From Eunapius fragilis (taxonomy: Eukaryota > Porifera > Demospongiae > Spongillida > Spongillidae): DNA of 64,000 bases. The DNA lies in contig OY811973.1 of assembly GCA_963681505.1 (NCBI GenBank), positions 10,078,559-10,142,558 of the forward strand, in the 5' to 3' direction. The notes under the pieces were generated by a model, which had not been told where the DNA came from, did not search any database, and worked only from the letters and a program-made list of their open reading frames with translations. Positions within the stretch are counted from its first letter, which is position 1. Each line of letters begins with the position of its first letter. Positions 48,400 through 64,000 of this stretch are shown here, in pieces. Made by a program: the position numbers and the translations under genes.

Positions 48400-48880
48400 A
48401 TAAATAATTTATGGTGTCATACATACTATTATAATCAATTTTTAAAAGTCACCTTTTGAAATGGGCTGATTGTAACTGTGGCAACCAGCTCAGTATACAC
48501 GCCCAGGGTCAGGCTACATGCTGCATATGTGTGTGATTGTGTGTGTTGTGTGTGTGTGTGTGTGTGTATACATGTGTATATAATAGTAACATGTATGATA
48601 TGTGTGTGCATTTGGTACATGTGTGTGCGTGTGTGTTTGTTGTGTGCATGAATGCGCATACATGTGTATGTGAGCATGTATATGTGTACACGTTCAATGT
48701 GTGTATATTCACTGATTCAATGTTCCTGTTACATTGGTCATGATGTAATCTGTGCATCAAGCATGCAGGATCGGTGCTCTGGGTACATTGCATGTATATG
48801 TGTGTTCTGAGTTATTGGTGAGACAAGCGTATGCCGTTTGACAGTCTGATGCACATGAACAATGGCCTCCTTGATAATAA
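48400..48880. repeat. TG microsatellite region
   Basis: tgtgtg runs with acatgtg interruptions, mostly 48530-48710. No gene. Confidence 0.85.
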
Positions 48881-48883
48881 TGT

Positions 48884-49793
48884 GCTCACCTCATGCTGTC
48901 ATGTGCTCACCTCATGCTGTCATCATGTGCTCACCTTATGCTGTCTCGTGTGCTCACCTCGTGCTGTCATCAATCCTCATGCTGTCATCATGTGCTAACC
49001 TCATGCTGTCATGTGCTAATCTCATGCTGTCATCATGTGCTCACCTCATGCTGACATCATGTGCTCTCCTCATGCTGTCATCATGTGCTCACCTCATGCT
49101 GTCATGTGCTCACCTCATGCTGTCGTCATGTGCTCACCTCATGCTGTCATGTGCTCACCTCATGCTGACATCATGTGCTCACCTCATGCTGTCATCATGT
49201 GCTAACCTCATGCTGTCATGTGCTCACCTCATACTGTCATTATGTGCTAACCTCATGCTGTCATGTGCTCACCTCATACTGTCATTATGTGCTAACCTCA
49301 TGCTGTCATGTGCTCACCTCATACTGTCATCATGTGCTCACCTCATGCTGTCATGATCTCACCGCATACTGTCATCATGTGCTAACCTCATGCTGTCATG
49401 TGCTCACCTCGTACTGTCATCATGTGCTCACCTCATGCTGTCATCATGTGCTATCCTCATGCTGTCATCATGTGCTCACCTCATGTTGTTATCATGTGCT
49501 CACCTCATGCTGACATGTGCTACCCTCATGTTGTCATCATGTGCTAACCTCATGCTGTCATGTGCTCACCTCATACTGTCATCATGTGCTAACCTCATGC
49601 TGTCATCATGTGCTAACCTCATGCTGTCATCATGTGCTCACCTCATGCTGTCATGTGCTCACCTCATGCTGTCGTCATGTGCTCACCTCATGTTATCATG
49701 TGCTAACCTCATGCTGTCATGTGCTCACCTCATACTGTCATGTGCTCACCTCATACTGTCATGTGTTCACCTCATACTGTCATCAGGTGCCTG
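48884..49793. repeat. Minisatellite: tgctcacctcatgctgtcatca, over 40 copies
   Basis: A 16-22-bp unit with two common lengths (with or without a second atca) fills 0.9 kb. Variants include tgctaacctc and catactgtca. The long leucine/serine/cysteine-rich frames across it are products of the repeat and not proteins. Confidence 0.95.
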
Positions 49794-52930: not shown

Positions 52931-53100
52931 AAGCGCACGTGATACATTTGAGGATACTCGAAATATACGCAGTGCGAAATTGGTTCTATACGCAAAATAT
53001 ACCAGTGGGATATTTCGCGTATACGCACGCGTATATTCATGCGTATACTCGAAATATACGCAAAATATACAATAGCGTATATCCTATTTTTTGCACAGTG

Positions 53101-54964
53101 TTTGAGGTAGGTCAGGCTCGCCCATAACCTCTGGAGGTACAGGTGCTGTAGTAATTTCCTCTTCAGCTACCATCTGCTTTCCGTCAACCGGGTTCTGAAA
53201 TACTTCAACATCAAGTGGTTCTGGTTCGTCAATACCATCTAGAGGATCTGTAATAGTTGCCTCTTCTTGTGTAACGAGTAAAGGCGTTGTCTCCCGATCC
53301 TCGTCTCGTTGGACCGTGTTTTCCTCCAAGGGTATGGCTTCCGGTAAGGCAACATACGGCTTCAACCTGTCAAAATGAACCACCGTACGCCTTCGACGAG
53401 AATCCCTGTGTTGGAGCAAGAACAAAACATCACTTATTTGTTTTACTACCCTGTATGGCCCCTGCCAATATCGATGCAGCTTTGGTGACTTCCCCCGAGG
53501 AACTGCTGGGCAATGAAGCCATACCAAATCATCTACCACGTACGGTTTCCCATGTGTAGCTCTATCGTATAGAGCCTTTTGCCGTTGATGTTGCAGTCCC
53601 ATTCTTTCTCGAACCCGTTGGTAGGCACTCTCCAGTCGCAGCCTATGATCCAGGGCATACTGATTGACCTGTGAGGGAGTGGTAGACGGGGGAAGGCCAT
53701 ACATAACATCAGCAGGGAGGCGTGCCTCCCGGCCGAACATCAAATCAAAGGGTGTGCACCCAGTTGACTCTTGCACACTAGTGCGATAGGCCAGCATGAC
53801 CATCGGGAGATGAAGGTCCCACTCCTGCTCATTCTCCGATGCTGCAAGGCTGAGGAGATTAAGCAGTGTACGATTAAACCTTTCCACTAGACTGTCCGAT
53901 TGCGGATGGTAAGGCGTAGTTCTAGTTTTGACTATGCCTAGCAATTTGCATACTTCCTTCAACAAGGTAGATTCAAAGTTATGGCCCTGATCGGTATGGA
54001 GAATATCGGGTACTCCAAAATGGCTGACAAAATGGTGGACAAAAATACCCGCAACAGTCCCCGCCTCCATATTGGCCATTGGGTATGCCTCCATCCATTT
54101 GGTAAAATAGTCACCCACTACTAACACATACCTGTTACCTCTATCGGTCATCGGCAGGGGCCCGAGTATGTCCATAGCAACTCGCTGCAGTGGATAGCCA
54201 GCTATGTCAGTTTGAAGTTGAGCTCTCCTGGTTTTGGGTGGGGACTTTCTGGAAGCACACGTTTCACAGCTTTTGCACCAATTTTCCACGTCATGACGTT
54301 GTCCTGGCCAGTAGAATCTGCAACGAATCTTCTCTAACGTCTTTCGTGTGCCAAAATGACTGCCACTGCAAGCATCGTGATACTGTTTCAAAACGCTTCG
54401 AATCCACAATTTTGGTACTACAAGCTGCAGGTGACGATTAGATCCCCCTCCAGGCACATCCAACCATTGACGATAAAGAATTCCATCGTTCAATAGCAAA
54501 TGATTTTTCTGCAACCAGAGAGTTTGTAGCCAGTAGCTACTGCTAGTGGGAAGAGCAATGGGAACATTATTGTGTAACAGCCATGATACAACTTGCTGCA
54601 GATCAGCATCCTCCTTTTGTTCCTGCTTAGGGTCGCCTTCGAATCTGGTTTCAGCAGCCATTGCAGCATTTGTTACGTCATCACAATTGCCCTCCTCGAT
54701 GGGAAGATCCTTATCACAATGTGGGGGTGGGGCTGCCAGACCACATTGCTTGCAAGGAAGCCTTGATAGTGCATCAGCGTTACCATGCTTAGCTCCGGGA
54801 CGATGCTGGATCTGGAAGTCATATTCAGCTAATATGTCCAACCACCGAGCCACCTGTCCTTGTGGATCCTTGAAATTCTTCAACCACTGCAAAGAATTGT
54901 GATCTGTACGTATAATGAACCGACGACCCCACAGATATAGGCACGAAAGTAGTGGACCGCCCAC
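53101..54964 (-). pseudogene. Ty3/gypsy RNase H end and integrase
   Basis: A long open frame. It starts in RNase H (RRFIIRTDHNSLQWLKNFKD, ADALSRLP). It then has the integrase HHCC finger (H in YHDACSGSHFG; CKSCETCASRK) and the core with D in VAMDILGPLP, D in LHTDQGHNFES and E in LVERFNRTLLN. The GPY/F module is LHRYWQGPYRVVKQISD and VHFDRLKPY. All catalytic residues are present. The frame begins after a frameshift near 54955 relative to the RT frame. It ends prematurely because the CACTG transposon interrupts it after PDLPQ. The original tail (IESRNPADQPSR ... HNIYD, stop) survives beyond the insertion at about 46852-46960. Confidence 0.85.
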
Positions 54965-56349
54965 ACGACTGCCAACATCTCTCGCCTTGTTGCACAGTAT
55001 TGGCGTTCAGCTTTTGTCAGCACCCTGCTAGCGTATGCAACAACATGTCTGTCTCCATCTTGTGACAGCACCGCTCCCAGACCGTCCTGGCTAGCATCCG
55101 TATCCAGGACGAAAGTCTTATCGAACTGCGGAAAAGACAAGATGGGTGGTGACAGTAACGTACCTTTTAACGTTACAAAAGCAGCTTCACACTGTGTGGT
55201 CCAATGCCAGGGTTTAGTTCTTTCTGTCAGGGCAAACAAGGGTGCAGCAATTTGGGAAAAGTTCGTAACAAACTTCCTGTAGTAGGAAACAAATCCCAGA
55301 AAACGACGTAGGCTCTCTCGACTGTCGGGCACAGGCCAGTCACGAACACAACTAATCTTGGCAGGATCTGCCTCCACGCCTTTCTCTGACACAATGTGCC
55401 CCAGATATTGCACACTTTTGGATAAAAGTTGGCACTTGCCTGGTTTTATTTTGAGGCCCGCATCCTTCAATCTTCGAAGAACATCGGCGAGGCGCTGCAA
55501 GTGTTCCTCAACTGTTTGGTTGAAAATAATAATGTCATCGAGATATACCAAACACGTTTTCCAGCATAATCCCGACAGTACCAGGCTCATCAGCCTCTGA
55601 AAGGTACTGGGGGCGTTGGTCAGTCCGAACGGCATGACTCGAAACTGGTGTAGTCCAAATGGAGTGGCGAATGCTGTCTTTTCCTTGTCAGCAGGATCCA
55701 GCTCCACCTGCCAGTACCCACTGGCTAAATCAAGAACCGAGAATAACTTCGTCCCTGCCAGACTGTCCAATGCGTCATCAATTCTGGGGATTGGATGTAC
55801 ATCCTTTTTGGTTACATCATTCACACGGCGGAAATCAACGCAAAACCTGTACGACCCATCCTTCTTCTTCGCAAGCACAATAGGAGACGACCATGCACCT
55901 TCAGCTGGTTCCACAATACCCTGATCCAGCATCCCCTCTATCATATTATGCACCAATTCTCTTTGATGGAAGGGCAACCTGCGGGCTGTCTGATGAATGG
56001 GCGCGGCATCTCCTGTATCAATCTTGTGACGTAACATACTAGTACGCCCCAAATCGCCATCGCCCACGGAAATTACATCAGAATGCTCTTTTAAGAGAGC
56101 CCTTAATCCCTCGAGTTCGCTTACTGTTAGGCCCTGTACCTTTTTCAAGATGCCCTCTATTGCCTTACCAATGGCTTCTTTTGATCGAACAGCTGGCTTT
56201 CTATCCAGTGACGGCTCCACTAAGCCCACCATGTTCATATCTCGCAGCCCAGACAACTCACCAATTTTTTCCTTACCATACAAGGTTACTGGAACTGCTG
56301 TTGGATTCAGCAACTGTACTGTGGTCTTTCCACTACGAGTCGGTGACAC
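54880..56349 (-). pseudogene. Ty3/gypsy reverse transcriptase and RNase H start
   Basis: The open frame encodes the RT with HKIDTGDAAPIHQTARRLPF, SSPIVLAKKKDGSYRFCVDF, catalytic D in SVLDLASGYWQVEL, FGLTNAPSTFQRLM, and the YLDD box in TCLVYLDDIIIFNQ. Next are VQYLGHIVSEKGVEADPAKI, LRRFLGFVSYYRKFV and the RNase H opening VLDTDASQDGLGAVLSQ. The polymerase motifs are intact. The frame ends out of register in RNase H near 54955, where the next frame takes over. Confidence 0.87.
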
Positions 56350-57755
56350 AGAGTGAGCAAGCAGTAGAGACCACCATGCTTGTCTGGGAACTCGGGCTTC
56401 GGTTCAAAAAAACCAATGGAGTCGGGTACTCTTTTCTCCTGAGCTAGCTCCAGGTCGACTGGAAGCTGGACTTGGTGGAAGGCAGGAATAACAGTTGATT
56501 CATGAACCATCCCATGGCATGTAAAAGCACATTCACCCAAAAACAAGTGTACAGGTTTAGTACAACCTGCTATTGTTAGGAGTTTGTTCTTAACATCAAT
56601 GACACAGTCACCTTTCTCCAGGAAGTCTGTTCCCAATAAACACTCTTGAATCATCTCCTTAACAACAAGCACCTTATACACCCCAACATATTCTCCCACC
56701 TGGAAGGACACTTCTGCTTGCCCGCAAATGGGAAGGTTCTCGCCATTTACCGCGCCTTTACTGGGCCAGCTGATGGCTGCAGTTTCCTCCTTCCTTGTAC
56801 CGCTTCCTTCCAAACCCTTTTGTGCAGCAAAGTAACTGATGACCCTGTATCCACTAACATAGGTGTTATACGCCCCTCCACCTCGCCTTGCAACGTCAAG
56901 GTACACGCAACTGCTGACGTAAACTCGGCTGACCTTTCCGGTGTGATTTTACCCTTAGTTGGCCGTCTTTGTGGACAGTTTCTACGAAAATGTCCAGGTC
57001 TCCCGCATTTCCAGCAGACGCCTCTTTTATTTGCTCCGTTCTCTCCACTATCAGCACGCAACTTTCCTAACTGCTGCGATAAAGACCTTACCTGCGCGAC
57101 CAACTCCTGATAATTATCTCCACTTGCTCCAGTGGTATGCCGATCCGACGTATGGTCCGACACACCAGCGGTCAGCTTCGTGGTTTGAAGGCTCCGTTGT
57201 GCCAATTCTACCGCCTCCAGCTGGGTTGCCAGCGTGACAGCATCGTCCAATGCTGGCGGCTGCTCTTGCAACAACTTCAGCTGTATTGTGGAAGAAAGGA
57301 CACCATTAATAAATTGGTTACGTGCCATTTCCAGCCTGTCTATCGGTTCCCATGATGGAAAAGATCTATCGGCCAACATTCGCAGTCGTGCGGCAAACTC
57401 GGTGAGAGATTCAGCGCTCTTCTGCTGTGCCGTGTGGAGTTTTCGCCGCATGCCATTCAAGCTCTACGCCTGGAGGGGCAAACTGCTTCTCCAAGCACTT
57501 CTTTACCGCTGTATAATCAATGGCATCGTCACTTAGATAACCCATTTGACTCACAATACGGAAAGCCTCATCTTCTAACAGCGAGACAAGCTCTTGACCT
57601 TTCTTTTCGTCAGGGACATTCGCTTCTTTTAAATACAACTCCACGCGTTGTATCCAGAGGGTGAAGTCCACTCCTTTTCCAAACCTAGCTGGTGGTCTGA
57701 CACTAAACCTAGTGGGCCTGTGGTCGGCGCCTGCGGTTTGCGATTGAGCATCCAT
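56307..57755 (-). pseudogene. Ty3/gypsy gag, zinc knuckle and protease, frameshifted
   Basis: Gag starts at ATG 57755, overlapping the primer-binding site, and reads RFGKGVDFTLWIQRVELYLK and LEDEAFRIVSQMGYLSDDAI. A frameshift near 57445 moves to the frame with LTEFAARLRMLADRSFPSWE, the CCHC knuckle CWKCGRPGHFRRNC and the protease active site MLVDTGSSVTLL. A second shift near 56830 leads to the frame carrying the protease end ECLLGTDFLEKGDCVIDV. The frame steps exceed the single one expected between gag and pol, so decay or sequence error is likely. Confidence 0.82.
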
Positions 57756-57771
57756 CCCACTCCTGACACCA
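57754..57771 (-). promoter_or_regulatory. tRNA-Leu primer-binding site
   Basis: On the minus strand TGGTGTCAGGAGTGGGAT, complementary to the 3' end of tRNA-Leu including CCA. It starts one base after the 5' LTR end (TTTACA). Confidence 0.8.
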
Positions 57772-57772
57772 A

Positions 57773-57891
57773 TGTAAAGGCCAGCTTTAATCAAGAGAAG
57801 TGCGCAGCAAGAGTAGATGCACAGTATATATACAGGCACACAGATCCAGTACGCATGCGCAATAATTAACTAAGATATTATATTCGCTACA
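57773..57891 (-). repeat. 5' LTR of the Ty3/gypsy element (119 bp)
   Basis: Starts TGTAGCG and ends TTTACA on the minus strand (TGTA/TACA termini). Very short for an LTR. It contains a TATA-like tatatatact. The adjoining LINE sequence resumes right after its outer end. Confidence 0.85.
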
Positions 57892-58860
57892 ATACCTTCA
57901 ATAGCTTAGTCTCTACCTCAGATGCCATATCTCCAGAGTATGCCATTGAGTCTCCTCCCTCACAGAGATCTCTCTCCCATACGCTGGATAGCTCGACTTA
58001 CAGTAGTTTGTATGACTCAGCTTCTCCAGCAAACAAAGCTCGCCTCCTCTCTACCTCTGCTTCCTTGGCCACTTCATGGGTTTCAGTCCTTCCTTCGGGT
58101 GAGCCTGGCCTGCATCTTGACCCTATTGAATTCCGCACAGCTATTTCATGGTGGCTGGGTTTAGAAACAACAACAGCCTCCTGCTGTCTGCTATGTCCTG
58201 AAATTGCTTTGGACCCCCTGGGGCATCATGCACTGTCATGCAGACGAGGTGGTGATGTGGTTCTCCGACACAACCAGCTGCGAGATGTCTTTGTAGATAT
58301 TTGCCACAAGGCAAACCTTGGAGTGAGGATCGAGGCAGGTAGTGCACTTACCCCTGACCTTTCTAGGTCTCGTCCTGCGGATGCCCTATAGTGAACAACT
58401 GGATAAGTGGTCTCTCTGCCGCTTTTGATGTAACTGTGACGTCTCCTCTTACACCTGTGTCACTTCGTGAAGCAAGCGTCACTGCAGGAACAGCTGCTCA
58501 TCTGGCAGAGCAGAGGAAGCACCAGGCGAATGACCCCAAGTGTGATACCCTTGGATGGAAATGTATCCCTCTTGCTGTGGAAAGCTATGGGAACTGGGGT
58601 CTTGAAGCCAGGCAGGCTTTTTCCCATTTGGCCTCGCGCCTGTCCTTTGGCACAGGACACCAGAGGTCAAAGACCTTGGTAGAGATCTATGGGAAGCTAA
58701 ACTTAACCCTGGTGAGGTGCAATGCCAGAGCTCTCCTAAGCAGAGCATGCAATTTGGCGTAGTTTCTCTATGTATGTGCATAGTGTAATAGTAGCAATAA
58801 CAATTTATGTGTACATATATCAATCCTGTAAGTGCATTTATTATTAATAATAATAATGTG
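57892..58860 (+). pseudogene. LINE B, 3' part: CCHC and RLE-like C-terminus, (TAA)n tail
   Basis: Resumes the LINE protein at NTFNSLVSTSDAISPEYAIE, then SASPANKARLLSTSASLATS, the knuckle CCLLCPEIALDPLGHHALSC and RHNQLRDVFVDICHKANLGV, then SRSRPADAL. A frameshift near 58388 separates RPAD from AAFDVTVTSPLTPVSL, which breaks the endonuclease-like active site. The C-terminus (DTLGWKCIPLAVESYGNWG, YGKLNLTLVRCNARALLSR) ends at 58760. The 3' end at about 58840-58857 is a TAA-type run as in copies A1-A3. Confidence 0.85.
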
Positions 58861-58869
58861 CATTTATTC

Positions 58870-59170
58870 AATTGAAGTATTCTGTAATCTATTATCTATC
58901 ATTATTAAAATGAAGTAAGCAAATTTAGCTGCTAGATTTTAATAAATTAACTTTTCATTTTGTGTCAATGGCGCAATTCAATTACTTGTATGCTGTTCCA
59001 ATGTATTTTGATGTGTTTTTAAAATTGAGTACGTATTTAAAAATTTGATTCCAGCTGAACTACTGCCGTTCTGAACAGAAAAATGCATAAGCAGTTGTTT
59101 CTTTTTTTCGCCATACCTATGTGTATGTATGTTTTTAAGCCTTGTTTTTTTGTACTGATACTGTGCCACT
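58870..59170. other. AT-rich spacer, no gene seen
   Basis: Nothing supported. Confidence 0.5.
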
Positions 59171-59174
59171 CAAC

Positions 59175-59280
59175 ATCATAATGTAACGCCGTCACGTCAT
59201 GCTATATGGACGTCACGTCATGCTATAAGGACGTCATGCTGTAAGGACGTCATGCTGTAAGGACGTCATGCTGTAAGGCA
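59175..59280 (-). repeat. Array of a 16-bp unit AAGGACGTCATGCTGT (left, about 6 units)
   Basis: Tandem copies of atgctgtaaggacgtc on the plus strand (minus strand ctta-cagcatgacgtc). The array runs directly into the coding frame at 59283-59500. Confidence 0.9.
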
Positions 59281-59515
59281 CTTTTTCTGCCCTGGCACAG
59301 ATGATTCTCTTCATTGATAGGTGACAGCACTCAAAAAAGCGTTCTGGATGCATCTGAGCATTGTCAGTGGAGGTGTTGATTGCAAAAGCTGTTAACAGAT
59401 CATCTGCGAATCCTTTGCATTCATAAGTGCTCTTCTTTTGCCCACTCTTCATTAGCCTCTTTTCACAAACTCTGCAGTGCAGCGGCAGTTGTTTTGTGTG
59501 GTAACCATCCCTTTA
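59237..59515 (-). pseudogene. RAG1-N-terminal-like zinc domain fragment
   Basis: The minus strand encodes LPLHCRVCEKRLMKSG, then FADDLLTAFAINTSTDNAQM, then HPERFFECCHLSMKR. The pattern CRxC ... DLL-x-F-x-I ... D-x3-(I/M)HP-x2-F-(C)-x2-C matches the zinc-binding region N-terminal to the RING of RAG1 and of RAG1-NTD-like proteins and transposons of invertebrates. Here the first Cys of the FCxxC pair is Phe (one base change), so zinc binding would be damaged. Upstream there is a stop; downstream the frame reads VPYSMTS and dissolves into the 16-bp satellite. No RAG1 catalytic core or Transib transposase is present. Assignment is by motif only. Confidence 0.5.
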
Positions 59516-59689
59516 ACCCGCAACATGCATCGTTTATTCATAAGATACACTCAAGGTTTTCTAGTGACAGAAAATCCGAGACCAGATATCTGGTTCGTCA
59601 GTTACGTTACTGACATGCCTTGGCTTGACCGACAGACTAGTCTTACCTCCAGATCAACTTCGGGTAGCCCGTTCTATTCGATCTAGTTC

Positions 59690-60690
59690 CCACCTAACAG
59701 AAACAAGTACCGCATGGGGTTATAAACACGGCTTGCGCATACGGTAGGCCTGAAATTTGGGAAAGTGCGTGAGGACTATAGTTAAAAGAGCATGAAAGGT
59801 TGTGTTGTATATTAGTTTAAAATACTGCATTTACTACTTCTTCTGAGACGCTTTGAAACATAAGCATTTTTAATGAGGTGTTTCTTCGCTATCTATTAGA
59901 CAGGTACCGTAATGTTCTAATTATAAACCTAGTTTCCAGCCGCATACAACCGTGATGCCAACGTTCCAGTTAATTAATTAATTTGCATTTAGCCATGTAT
60001 CCGTATCCATGGAAGCTACATTAAAAACACTCAACAAGATGGCGCTAATTGTATCCTAGTCTCTGTGGCCCAAAACAATTTAAAATTCAAATGGCCGAAA
60101 TCTATACTAGGTATATATTTTTTAATATCTCTAAAAATAATAGAACTGCACGATCTCTTATTCTGGGGGCACACAAAATTTGAATCTAAACTGGTGTAAG
60201 AATTATGAGCTGCAGAATACATTAATTAGGTGCGAAAAAGTTGATTTTCCATACATCTCTTTGGAAAGTGCTGTTTTCACAAAACTACAGCAATTTTCAA
60301 TACAAAGCGTTGTTTTTTGTTCAGCTAAATCAAGATCATACGTATCTGAAACAATATTGATAGCCACAAAAGTTGTACCCTATTACGTTATTAAATAGCA
60401 ATCAAGTTTAAAAAACGCCGTTCCTTTTCTATGGGAGTTATCCGGAAGTATACGCGAGTGTACAAACCGCAACAATTGTCAATTCCCTTTGACCGCGCAT
60501 TTCTGGATATGGTTTTTTAAAAATGATTTATTCACAATTACATGTATCAATGCAGACACTAGTACATGTGTTGGCGTGTTACAATAGGCTCGTTCTAGCT
60601 TTGTGTATAGGATTGAACAATTTTATCGACGGGCTCGGAGGGGAGATTTAACACCCCCCCTACCCAGATCCGTATGACAAGCGGTATGTA
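59690..60690. other. Spacer between two inverted satellite arrays, no gene seen
   Basis: AT-rich, no frame or TIR that I can support. Confidence 0.45.
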
Positions 60691-60699
60691 AGAAGAATA

Positions 60700-60966
60700 A
60701 ATCATGTCGTGACGTTACCTTACAGCATGCATGACGTGCGGTCCTTACACCATGACGTGACGTCAGCATGACGTCCTTACAGCATGATATGACGTCCTTA
60801 CAGCATGACGTCCTTACAACATGACATCCATACAGCATGACGTCCTTACAGCATGACGTCCTTACAGCATGACGTCCTTACAGCCTTTACAGCATGACGT
60901 CTTACAGCATGACGTCCTTACAGCATGACGTCCTTACAGCATGACGTATTTACAGCATGACGCCCT
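60700..60966 (+). repeat. Array of the same 16-bp unit, inverted (right, about 13 units)
   Basis: Copies of cttacagcatgacgtc on the plus strand, inverted relative to 59175-59280, with diverged units at its left edge (accttacagcatgcatgacg). Confidence 0.9.
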
Positions 60967-61144
60967 TGTATGCATGATCTCGTAATTGGGCCTGGATGGT
61001 AGATTTACTAACCCTACAATACTGATGCGTACGTATGTCATGTAGCAGTATGTAAGGAACGATTCACGCTTCAGTCTCAAATACATTTGCATTAGAGTCA
61101 GTGAAGCAAAAAAGGGGGGGGGGGGGGGGGGGGGGGGGGTAAAG

Positions 61145-61994
61145 CATAGATATTATACGGAAGGGATTGGAAACGGAAGTCTTTAACACCAATCAACAGG
61201 TTCCATCCATGCAGGAAAAATAAAATAAAATGGCGGATAATATCTATGGTTTCAGATACTTTTTCGAAGAAAACCGGTCGTTGTGTATAGTTTGAGGCTT
61301 TTTCCTTTATTCTGTCACTTGCTTAAAAGGTATGGATATTTTTAGATATGTTTTTATGACTGTAAATGATTTTAGACCCGAGTTTTTTTAAAGACCCGCG
61401 TTCCGTGTCTTTGCGAAGCCTTTGTGGGCGTGTAGGAAACGTTAGCGTTGTCATATTGGCTACTTTATTGTAGAATCGAGTGGAGCTTCGTGAGACAAAT
61501 CGAACTGGCTAGGTATTATCTCAAATGCGTGTTATACACTCGTACAAAAGTTGGCCATAAAGACTTTGACATGAGACTGGTTGTGGGCATCTAAAGTGCG
61601 CCAAGAGCTTTTGAGATAATACCTAGCCAGTTCGATTTGTCTCACGAAGCTCCACTCGATTCTACAATAAAGTAGCCAATATGACAACGCTAACGTTTCC
61701 TACACGCCCACAAAGGCTTCGCAAAGACACGGAACGCGTGTCTTTTAAAAAACTCGGGTCTAAAATCATTTACAGTCATAAAAACATATCTATTAATATC
61801 CATACCTCTTAAGCAAGTGACAGAATAAAGGAAAAAGCCTCAAACTATACACAACGACCGGTTTTCTTCGAAAAAGTATCTGAAACGCAGTGGCAAACGT
61901 GTTAATTGATCCTACAGTGACAGGCCGTAAGCCAGCCTATGCAATGTATTGCATCACGTGATCCGTTTCCAATCCCTTCCGTATAATATCTATG
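61145..61994. mobile_element. Foldback element, 850 bp
   Basis: The outer arms catagatattatacggaagg and their inverse close the element. Inner arms of more than 200 bp (for example ggtttcagatactttttcga, cgagtggagcttcgtgagac, each with its reverse complement) flank a loop of about 80 bp at 61533-61612. GGTAAAG directly repeats at 61138-61144 and 61995-62001. No coding frame. Confidence 0.9.
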
Positions 61995-61999
61995 GGTAA

Positions 62000-63500
62000 A
62001 GCCCAAAAATTTTGGACCAGCATATTATAAGTTTTCATTGTAGATTAATAGATGCGATTTCCAATAAAGTGCGCCGTGCCATGCATGCATAAACGAGCAT
62101 TTTCAATATTAACTACAAGCCGCCTGTGCATATTGATTGAAGCCCTTCATTGGTGAGGTGGGGGGGGGGGGGGGGGGGGGGGGGGGGGAAGGAACCTCCT
62201 CATTAATCGCACAGATGAGTTCCAATCAGTAAAGAAGTGTGTCGTGATAACACTTTCACCTGAGCTTGTGCCTTAGGAAATAATTCCTTAGAAGTAACGA
62301 TATATAGAGCTACCAGCGGATAAATGAACATCAACAGTAGTAGCTATGCCAATAAATAGTGCGATCCTCTTTAGTGCTTTCTAAACGTGTGCACTCCTCG
62401 AGATAGCTTGCACCATGCCGGTCGCTGACGTTTTTGAATTTTAGCGTAGGGCAAGCAAATTTGATATATGCATGCATGCATAACTCGATGACCCAAGATT
62501 TTTTAAAAGGAGAAAAGGTTGTGGATATCTTCGCTAAATTACACCCAAGACATGATGTTTACTAATAAGAAATGAAGCCCTAACCTTGACATCTTTGTGC
62601 ACCTGCACTGTACTCTTACGTCATATGCACATTCTGTTACACATGAACAGTTCTGGTACTATTATAAGTTGCTTGTACCAATGCACGCAGTACATCAGTG
62701 CACAGTTTCCAAGGTTTAACATAACGACCTTCTTCTTGCTGTTTATCAGCAGCCTATACTGGCAATTTAGATGGAAATAAACTTCTAGTTAGTGGAGCAG
62801 CCGATCCTTGATTATCCTTATAAAATGCAGGCTATGTTAATACATATCTGTATGCAAATGACTTTGACGGTGAGCGTTTAGCCACCTGATTATCTCTTCT
62901 GGACTGCAATCTTTCCTTTGAAGTTCATATAGTCTGAAAGGTGGCATGAAATTAAAAAAAAAAAGAACAATCATCCAACTTTTCTAGCAACTCGTTTCAC
63001 AGCTCAACTATACATAGAGGTACTGAAGCTTGCAAAATTTATTCTTGTAATGCGCCAGCAGTTAGAGAATTGAACGTTGCTCGTGAAGACATGGCGTACG
63101 GGAGGTGCCATGCACCAGACTTGCATGGTGCTACATGCACTATACTGATATGCTACAGACCTTCGAGCAGCCTTTGTAAGCCAAAATTCAAACCACCATA
63201 CAATAAAAATTTGTTTAAAACTAACCCTAAATCTAGAGCTATCATGTATCATTGCCCATGCACGCATGCACACGATGTGTTCTTTTTTCTCTACATGATT
63301 GATTTGGCTTTTAAAATTACTTCGATTAACTATTGCCATGTATATATGTCTTCCAAACTCAAAGAGTAGTACATTTCCACATCTCCTTTATATATCGCAA
63401 GTCAATTTTGGAGCATGTGAATACTAGCTGCTGTCTTAAAAAGTTACAAGTAGGGGCTAACATATAGACCATGCATAACTACCTCCTGCTTATGCATGGT
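62000..63500. other. Intergenic, no gene seen
   Basis: Contains a G-run (about 62160-62188) and scattered AT-rich DNA. Confidence 0.45.
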
Positions 63501-63662
63501 TCATTCAGATGAGTTGAGTTTATGTGTTTCACTGTCAATGTGTTCTTGCCTTCAAGAAAAGATTTGTATTATAGCACCTCGCTATGGTGGGTCATTGATG
63601 CCGTTTATGGAAGACCCATTATTAGAAGAAATATTTTTCTCCTTTTAAAATTACCTAGCTCA

Positions 63663-63893
63663 ATGGCAAACAATGATTGGAATAGCTCGTGGACGAGATA
63701 TTTTGACGAAGTGAGCAAATTTCTAAGTGACACCGAGCGCCGCTATGGAGTTGCAACAGCAAACTATTGCGAAAACGTCTTGGATAGGCTCGATTGTATC
63801 TACACTTGCACAAACCTACACGATAGCATGGATCAGGAAAGGGACGACGAGGACGTCATCTCATGTCGGAGTACTTCCAGTGTATACTGATGT
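63663..63893 (+). CDS. Hypothetical small acidic protein or first exon
   Basis: The frame from ATG 63663 encodes MANNDWNSSWTRYFDEVSKF, then LSDTERRYGVATANYCENVL, DRLDCIYTCTNLHDSM and the acidic DQERDDEDVIS before a stop at about 63888-63890. Predicted helical and acidic. The frame is open upstream to about 63522, but the internal ATG looks the better start. It could be a first exon whose donor lies near the acidic end. I do not recognise it. Confidence 0.35.
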
Positions 63894-63904
63894 TTTGTGT
63901 CGGC

Positions 63905-64000
63905 TACACATTTCAACTTTGAGTGTACTATGCCAGTGTTGTGTGTAACTTTGAGTGTACTTGAGTATTCAACTTTGAGTATATTATGTGTTGTGTAATC
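63905..64000 (+). repeat. Short tandem aactttgagtgta-type repeat at the right edge
   Basis: caactttgagtgtac and variants recur four times up to the end of the window. Confidence 0.6.

Follow-up and report, generated by a model that had tools for sequence, protein, structure and literature searches.

How a coding sequence comes to run directly into a tandem repeat is the question raised by a short segment of the window analysed here, a 64-kb stretch (G000:C3:10078559-10142558) of the sponge genome that we searched (219 Mb, 24 contigs). In this segment, a reading frame resembling the N-terminal domain of RAG1 continues into a 16-bp tandem array, and the same array occurs inverted further on. 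A reading made from the sequence alone had proposed either that the satellite was born from the domain-coding segment or that a transposon with satellite ends had picked up the domain. We describe below the domain and the element that carries it, then the element that carries the arrays, and finally the point where both meet. Coordinates of the features are collected in Table 1.

Table 1. Features around the junction, in window numbering (empty strand cell: none assigned).
Feature	Positions	Strand	Remarks
Inner right-end sequence, array transposon copy A (IS3EU-like)	58844-59172	plus	about 80-82% match to L009 from 6630 on
Truncated right TIR, copy A	59173-59278	plus	16-bp units (ACGTCATGCTGTAAGG), of which five can be recognised
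Point where the array of copy A meets the Chapaev fragment	59278-59279		about 1 bp shared
Truncated Chapa (RAG1 N-terminal-like) coding piece	59279-59509	minus	1-bp deletion after ATG position
5' terminal 676 bp of Chapaev transposon	59279-59954	minus	5' end CACGGTTGT... at 59954
Dispersed sequence	60010-60511		also adjoins Chapaev 5' end in L026; partly in L013
Left TIR, array transposon copy B (IS3EU-like)	60673-60967	plus	5' TATGACAAGCGG..., then inverted 16-bp array
Copy B body	60968-64000	plus	broken by fold-back insertion 61145-61994

Identity of the coding piece

The motifs CRVC, DLLTAF-I and HPERFF-CC, followed by VPYSMTS, are all present in one minus-strand frame (59234-59512), as the sequence-only reading had described, and its attribution to the RAG1 N-terminal domain is borne out. 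Indeed, a sister copy, taken with its complete exon, matches PF12560 (RAG1_imp_bd) with an E-value of 1.9e-6 (28.1 bits for a cut-off of 23.3 bits), and a nine-row domain profile, composed of the window copy and eight sister copies, retrieved RAG1 as the best match among the solved structures of the PDB (21wb_A, E 3.6e-7). The window fragment alone stays under the 23.3-bit cut-off of PF12560 (E 0.0071, 16.4 bits) and, submitted to the PDB as a single query, retrieved the zif268 fingers first (E 0.011) and RAG1 at 0.18. Judged by these comparisons, the domain piece in the window is a RAG1-type N-terminal (Chapa) domain. One base found in the sister copies just past the ATG is missing from the window copy; this loss, combined with the truncation, marks the window domain copy as a pseudogene fragment. 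Rfam and tRNA scans of the whole 64-kb window gave no matches.

The Chapaev element carrying the domain

Of the 29 other domain loci, 24 contain a 25-base probe taken from just inside the 5' terminus, one mismatch being allowed, and in these it is mostly preceded by CACGGTTGT. The window fragment, which is 94.8% identical to the copy L017+L044, keeps only this 5' terminus, and the sister copies extend beyond the point where it stops. Over 4,530 bp, L017+L044 can be aligned with a second copy, L016+L045, with a sharp joint stop at both ends; the two include, 3' of the Chapa exon, a RING piece and a core piece matching DUF1280 (PF06918; E 2.9e-13 in L044 and 2.7e-9 in L036), which the window fragment lacks by truncation. 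The RING piece matches the RAG1 RING structure with an E-value of 1.8e-5 and RNF125 slightly better (7.7e-6); in a longer Chapaev relative, RING families were matched under their cut-offs (E 0.00086 and weaker). Termini of the CAC..GTG type were observed in all eight copies inspected at both ends, and the 4-bp target duplication, a length within the 3-4 bp of Chapaev, is exact in seven of the eight inspected copies, the remaining one having a mismatch. Among the more distant copies, the element of L051 has its 3' boundary at 2361, L055 and L056 match each other over nearly their whole length and hence give no boundary, and no ends were found in the domain group L060/L061 (39% identity).

The succession of Chapa, RING and DUF1280, the CAC..GTG ends and the 4-bp duplications fit the Chapa+RING type of Chapaev, and the element carrying the domain is, on these sequence features, a Chapaev transposon. 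In the portions of the literature covered, DUF1280 is identified as the transposase of Chapaev, grouping with RAG1 (PMC3985635), CAC..GTG ends and a 4-bp duplication are given for Chapaev (PMC4079192), and Chapaev elements with a Chapa domain and a RING finger are described (Kapitonov and Koonin 2015, PMC4411706). The sponge elements share with the latter, as far as the covered part of that article goes, the order Chapa then RING, the DUF1280/Chapaev core, the termini and the duplication length; they differ from them by their many diverged subfamilies in one sponge and their conserved 8/19 ends (see below), the window containing a 5' fragment only. They also resemble N-RAG-TP of Aplysia, another mobile element with RAG1 N-terminal-like sequence, which is described in the consulted part of PMC8355894 as consisting entirely of N-terminal-like sequence, whereas here this sequence is succeeded by a RING and a DUF1280 core. 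Two RAG1/Transib traits are lacking: the target duplication is of 4 bp instead of the 5 bp of RAG1/Transib, and RAG1 was absent from the PDB matches of the one Chapaev core piece searched.

The transposon built on 16-bp units

The second, inverted array that had been reported is confirmed: the first array lies at 59194-59278 and the inverted one at 60741-60967, with about 1.46 kb between them, and both are beyond chance (TRF scores 121 and 274). Genome-wide, a two-unit pattern gave 297 forward and 295 reverse matches with at most two mismatches, for none with the backwards control. These units fill most of the TIRs of a complete element of 6,074 bp (L009 1665-7738), which has TATGG..CCATA ends, a perfect TIR match over 82 bp and CGGAAC on both sides. 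A relative of 16.2 kb (L010/L011) shares these ends and is flanked by CGCGCG at either side, a duplication that is ambiguous since the flanks are CG repeats. TA..TA termini were noted at both ends of L009 and L010/L011, at the right end of L012 and at the left end of copy B in the window.

We propose to call this array transposon IS3EU-like, a putative assignment made from the ends only. Indeed, IS3EU/GingerRoot DNA transposons are characterised by TA..TA termini and a 6-bp duplication according to the part of PMC10045372 that was covered, and both traits are found in L009; compared with the elements described there, ours differ by their long TIRs made of a 16-bp tandem unit, and no IS3-like transposase was found in the six long frames scanned in L009, L010 and L011 (the frames of L012 and L013 were left out). 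The 16-bp units are probably serial transposase-binding sites. The 16.2-kb element also encloses frames for a hAT transposase, a RecQ-type helicase, DUF6589 and zf-AD, of which the hAT, RecQ-helicase and DUF6589 frames in L010 are taken as nested insertions.

Copy B extends past the window, its homology running to about 65464 in window numbering. The fold-back element that interrupts it is composed of two 280-nt arms, 98% complementary, plus terminal arms of 33 nt, and is bordered by GGTAAAG on both sides. Reverse-transcriptase-like sequences are located at an approximately equivalent position of the array transposon in copy A (58149-58842) and in L009 (6103-6684), in opposite orientations, and copy B also breaks there, at 65464 beyond the window (L046); the site may be a hot spot for retrotransposons.

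The junction at 59278/59279

The codons for VPYSMTS are, as claimed, the sequence of the 16-bp array. The coding sequence had been described as dissolving into the satellite, which is not what we observe: left of 59279 the native Chapaev reads differently, and array and coding sequence meet at a single sharp breakpoint with no grading. We therefore regard the locus, with high confidence, as a place where two unrelated DNA transposons of known kinds were joined by accident. Two IS3EU-like copies, A and B, stand in tandem, copy B supplying the inverted array; we infer that a deletion or end-joining event fused copy A to the Chapaev element at 59278/59279, copy A losing its outer right TIR and Chapaev its 3' part. 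Translation across the junction yields VPYSMTS.

Among the other explanations, the one that survives best, although improbable, is that the junction is an error of the assembly. The site does lie within a tandem repeat, a kind of sequence that can be misassembled, but the breakpoint is exact to the base, and the sequence on its Chapaev side is about 5% off its sisters, as expected for an old fixed fragment.

Still less probable is the capture of the domain by a transposon whose two satellite ends would be the arrays of the window. One part of this proposal stands, since the arrays are indeed transposon ends and, inverted relative to each other, are found to the left and right of the fragment. 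The other part does not, as these ends come from two different copies in tandem and do not enclose the domain as a pair. In L009 and L010/L011, which are complete, the units are in minus orientation in the left TIR and in plus orientation in the right TIR, an order that is reversed in the window. Outward from either window array the sequence is transposon interior, and the fragment ends at 59954 in a Chapaev terminus of its own. In the reading that we prefer, the arrays of the window are opposed because they are the neighbouring ends of two array-transposon copies in tandem.

The birth of the satellite by amplification of the domain coding sequence has a negligible probability and is already refuted for the loci examined. 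It would explain that the reading frame of the window runs on into the array codons, but in the sister domain copies what follows is HHKCTLTPFEWEEH... and not the 16-bp unit, and the unit builds long TIRs in elements that lack the domain. The genome search for the unit beside other copies of the domain gave none within 1.5 kb of it at the 29 other loci (L015-L043) and none in the 43 loci L015-L057, a set in which L046 and L057 are not Chapaev and from which L058-L061 were left out. Conversely, the outcome that the sequence-only reading had named as its own refutation was obtained at the loci examined, where the unit occurs with no link to the domain: among the matches listed (the first 100 of the 592 unit matches), none of the five array loci L009-L013 has a Chapaev element match. 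Since the sister copies have a coding continuation of their own and the other domain loci lack the unit, VPYSMTS is the product of reading through a fortuitous fusion. No satellite derived from a RAG1 domain needs to be assumed, and the locus becomes a junction of two transposons.

Finally, the view of the piece as an exon belonging to a RAG1-like gene of the host, outside any transposon, would agree with a RAG1 homology that is real by profile, but is practically excluded by the number of genome matches (at least 150 scored, out of 406 candidates), the transposon termini with their 4-bp duplications, and the truncation and frameshift of the window copy.

Asymmetric ends of the Chapaev elements

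Beyond the locus itself, the sponge genome is rich in Chapa+RING Chapaev elements for which ends could be paired and target duplications recognised. Their ends are bipartite, composed of CACGGNNGT, a spacer and GGAAACTA, the spacer being of 8 bp on the domain side and of 19 bp at the other end. With spacers of 0 to 30 bp allowed, this end pattern has 113 genome matches (77 and 36, against 14 and 4 with backwards-pattern controls), distributed as 73 with 8 bp, 32 with 19 bp, three each with 10 and 13 bp, and one each with 6 and 23 bp. The 8-bp type is the domain-side end in the copies inspected, and the 20 facing pairs of ends within 10 kb are all 8/19, none being 8/8 or 19/19. These spacers were noted in L016, L017, L036, L040, L041 and L051.

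Because the copies of S1, S1b and S2 are related by descent, their agreement on 8/19 is not independent. The distant subfamily S3 (L051, domain 37% identical) has 8/19 again, with AACC on both sides and a 3' box matching at 7 of 10 positions (chance 0.0037 at a fixed place). In group G4 (L059, 34%), box-like words GACA and AGGT occur at +10 in the 3' end, while the best unbiased 8-mer match between the ends is at offset -11, which counts against 8/19, as does L054, whose 3' box is largely missing. As most copies share ancestry, we keep the 8/19 spacing as a lead suggested by sequence comparison.

The difference between 8 and 19 is 11 bp, as in the 12/23 RAG signals. The covered parts of PMC8355894 and PMC8289069 give spacer pairs of 12/23 in RSS and some Transibs and of 27/31 in ProtoRAG, and the Chapaev ends resemble RSS and Transib/ProtoRAG TIRs, as presented there, by a terminal block starting with CAC, a spacer and a second conserved block. 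Compared with RSS, the Chapaev 8/19 is counted after a 9-bp terminal block and the second block, GGAAACTAGG, does not look like a nonamer. We tentatively raise the possibility, which we consider rather unlikely on present evidence, that Chapa+RING Chapaev elements use paired 8/19 ends with spacers differing in length by one helical turn and that synapsis would require one of each. If true, a 12/23-like rule would exist in the Chapaev branch, outside Transib/RAG and in an early-branching animal, and it would be either older than V(D)J recombination or independent of it. No mention of an asymmetry of Chapaev ends was found in the literature covered, which did not extend to the Repbase reports or to a part of PMC4411706. 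The conserved spacing provides a cheap and concrete way to ask whether 12/23-like pairing exists outside the Transib/RAG line.

Other repeats and mitochondrial sequences

Upstream of the junction, the minus strand of 53084-57869 has long frames with the look of an LTR retrotransposon (protease, reverse transcriptase and integrase recognised by eye), located between retrotransposon frames, and a 24-bp unit is repeated about 40 times in tandem at 48880-49790. Elsewhere in the assembly, contig C24 carries cox1, with nine in-frame TGA codons and with ordinary tRNAs as neighbours, and a match to ATP-synthase C; a mitochondrial genome that bears atp9 and uses this code is indicative of a sponge. Pieces of cox1-like sequence, also with TGA in frame, were found in the nuclear contigs at G000:C9 9.62-9.68 Mb, C11:5693715 and C2:14191734, and are probably mitochondrial insertions.
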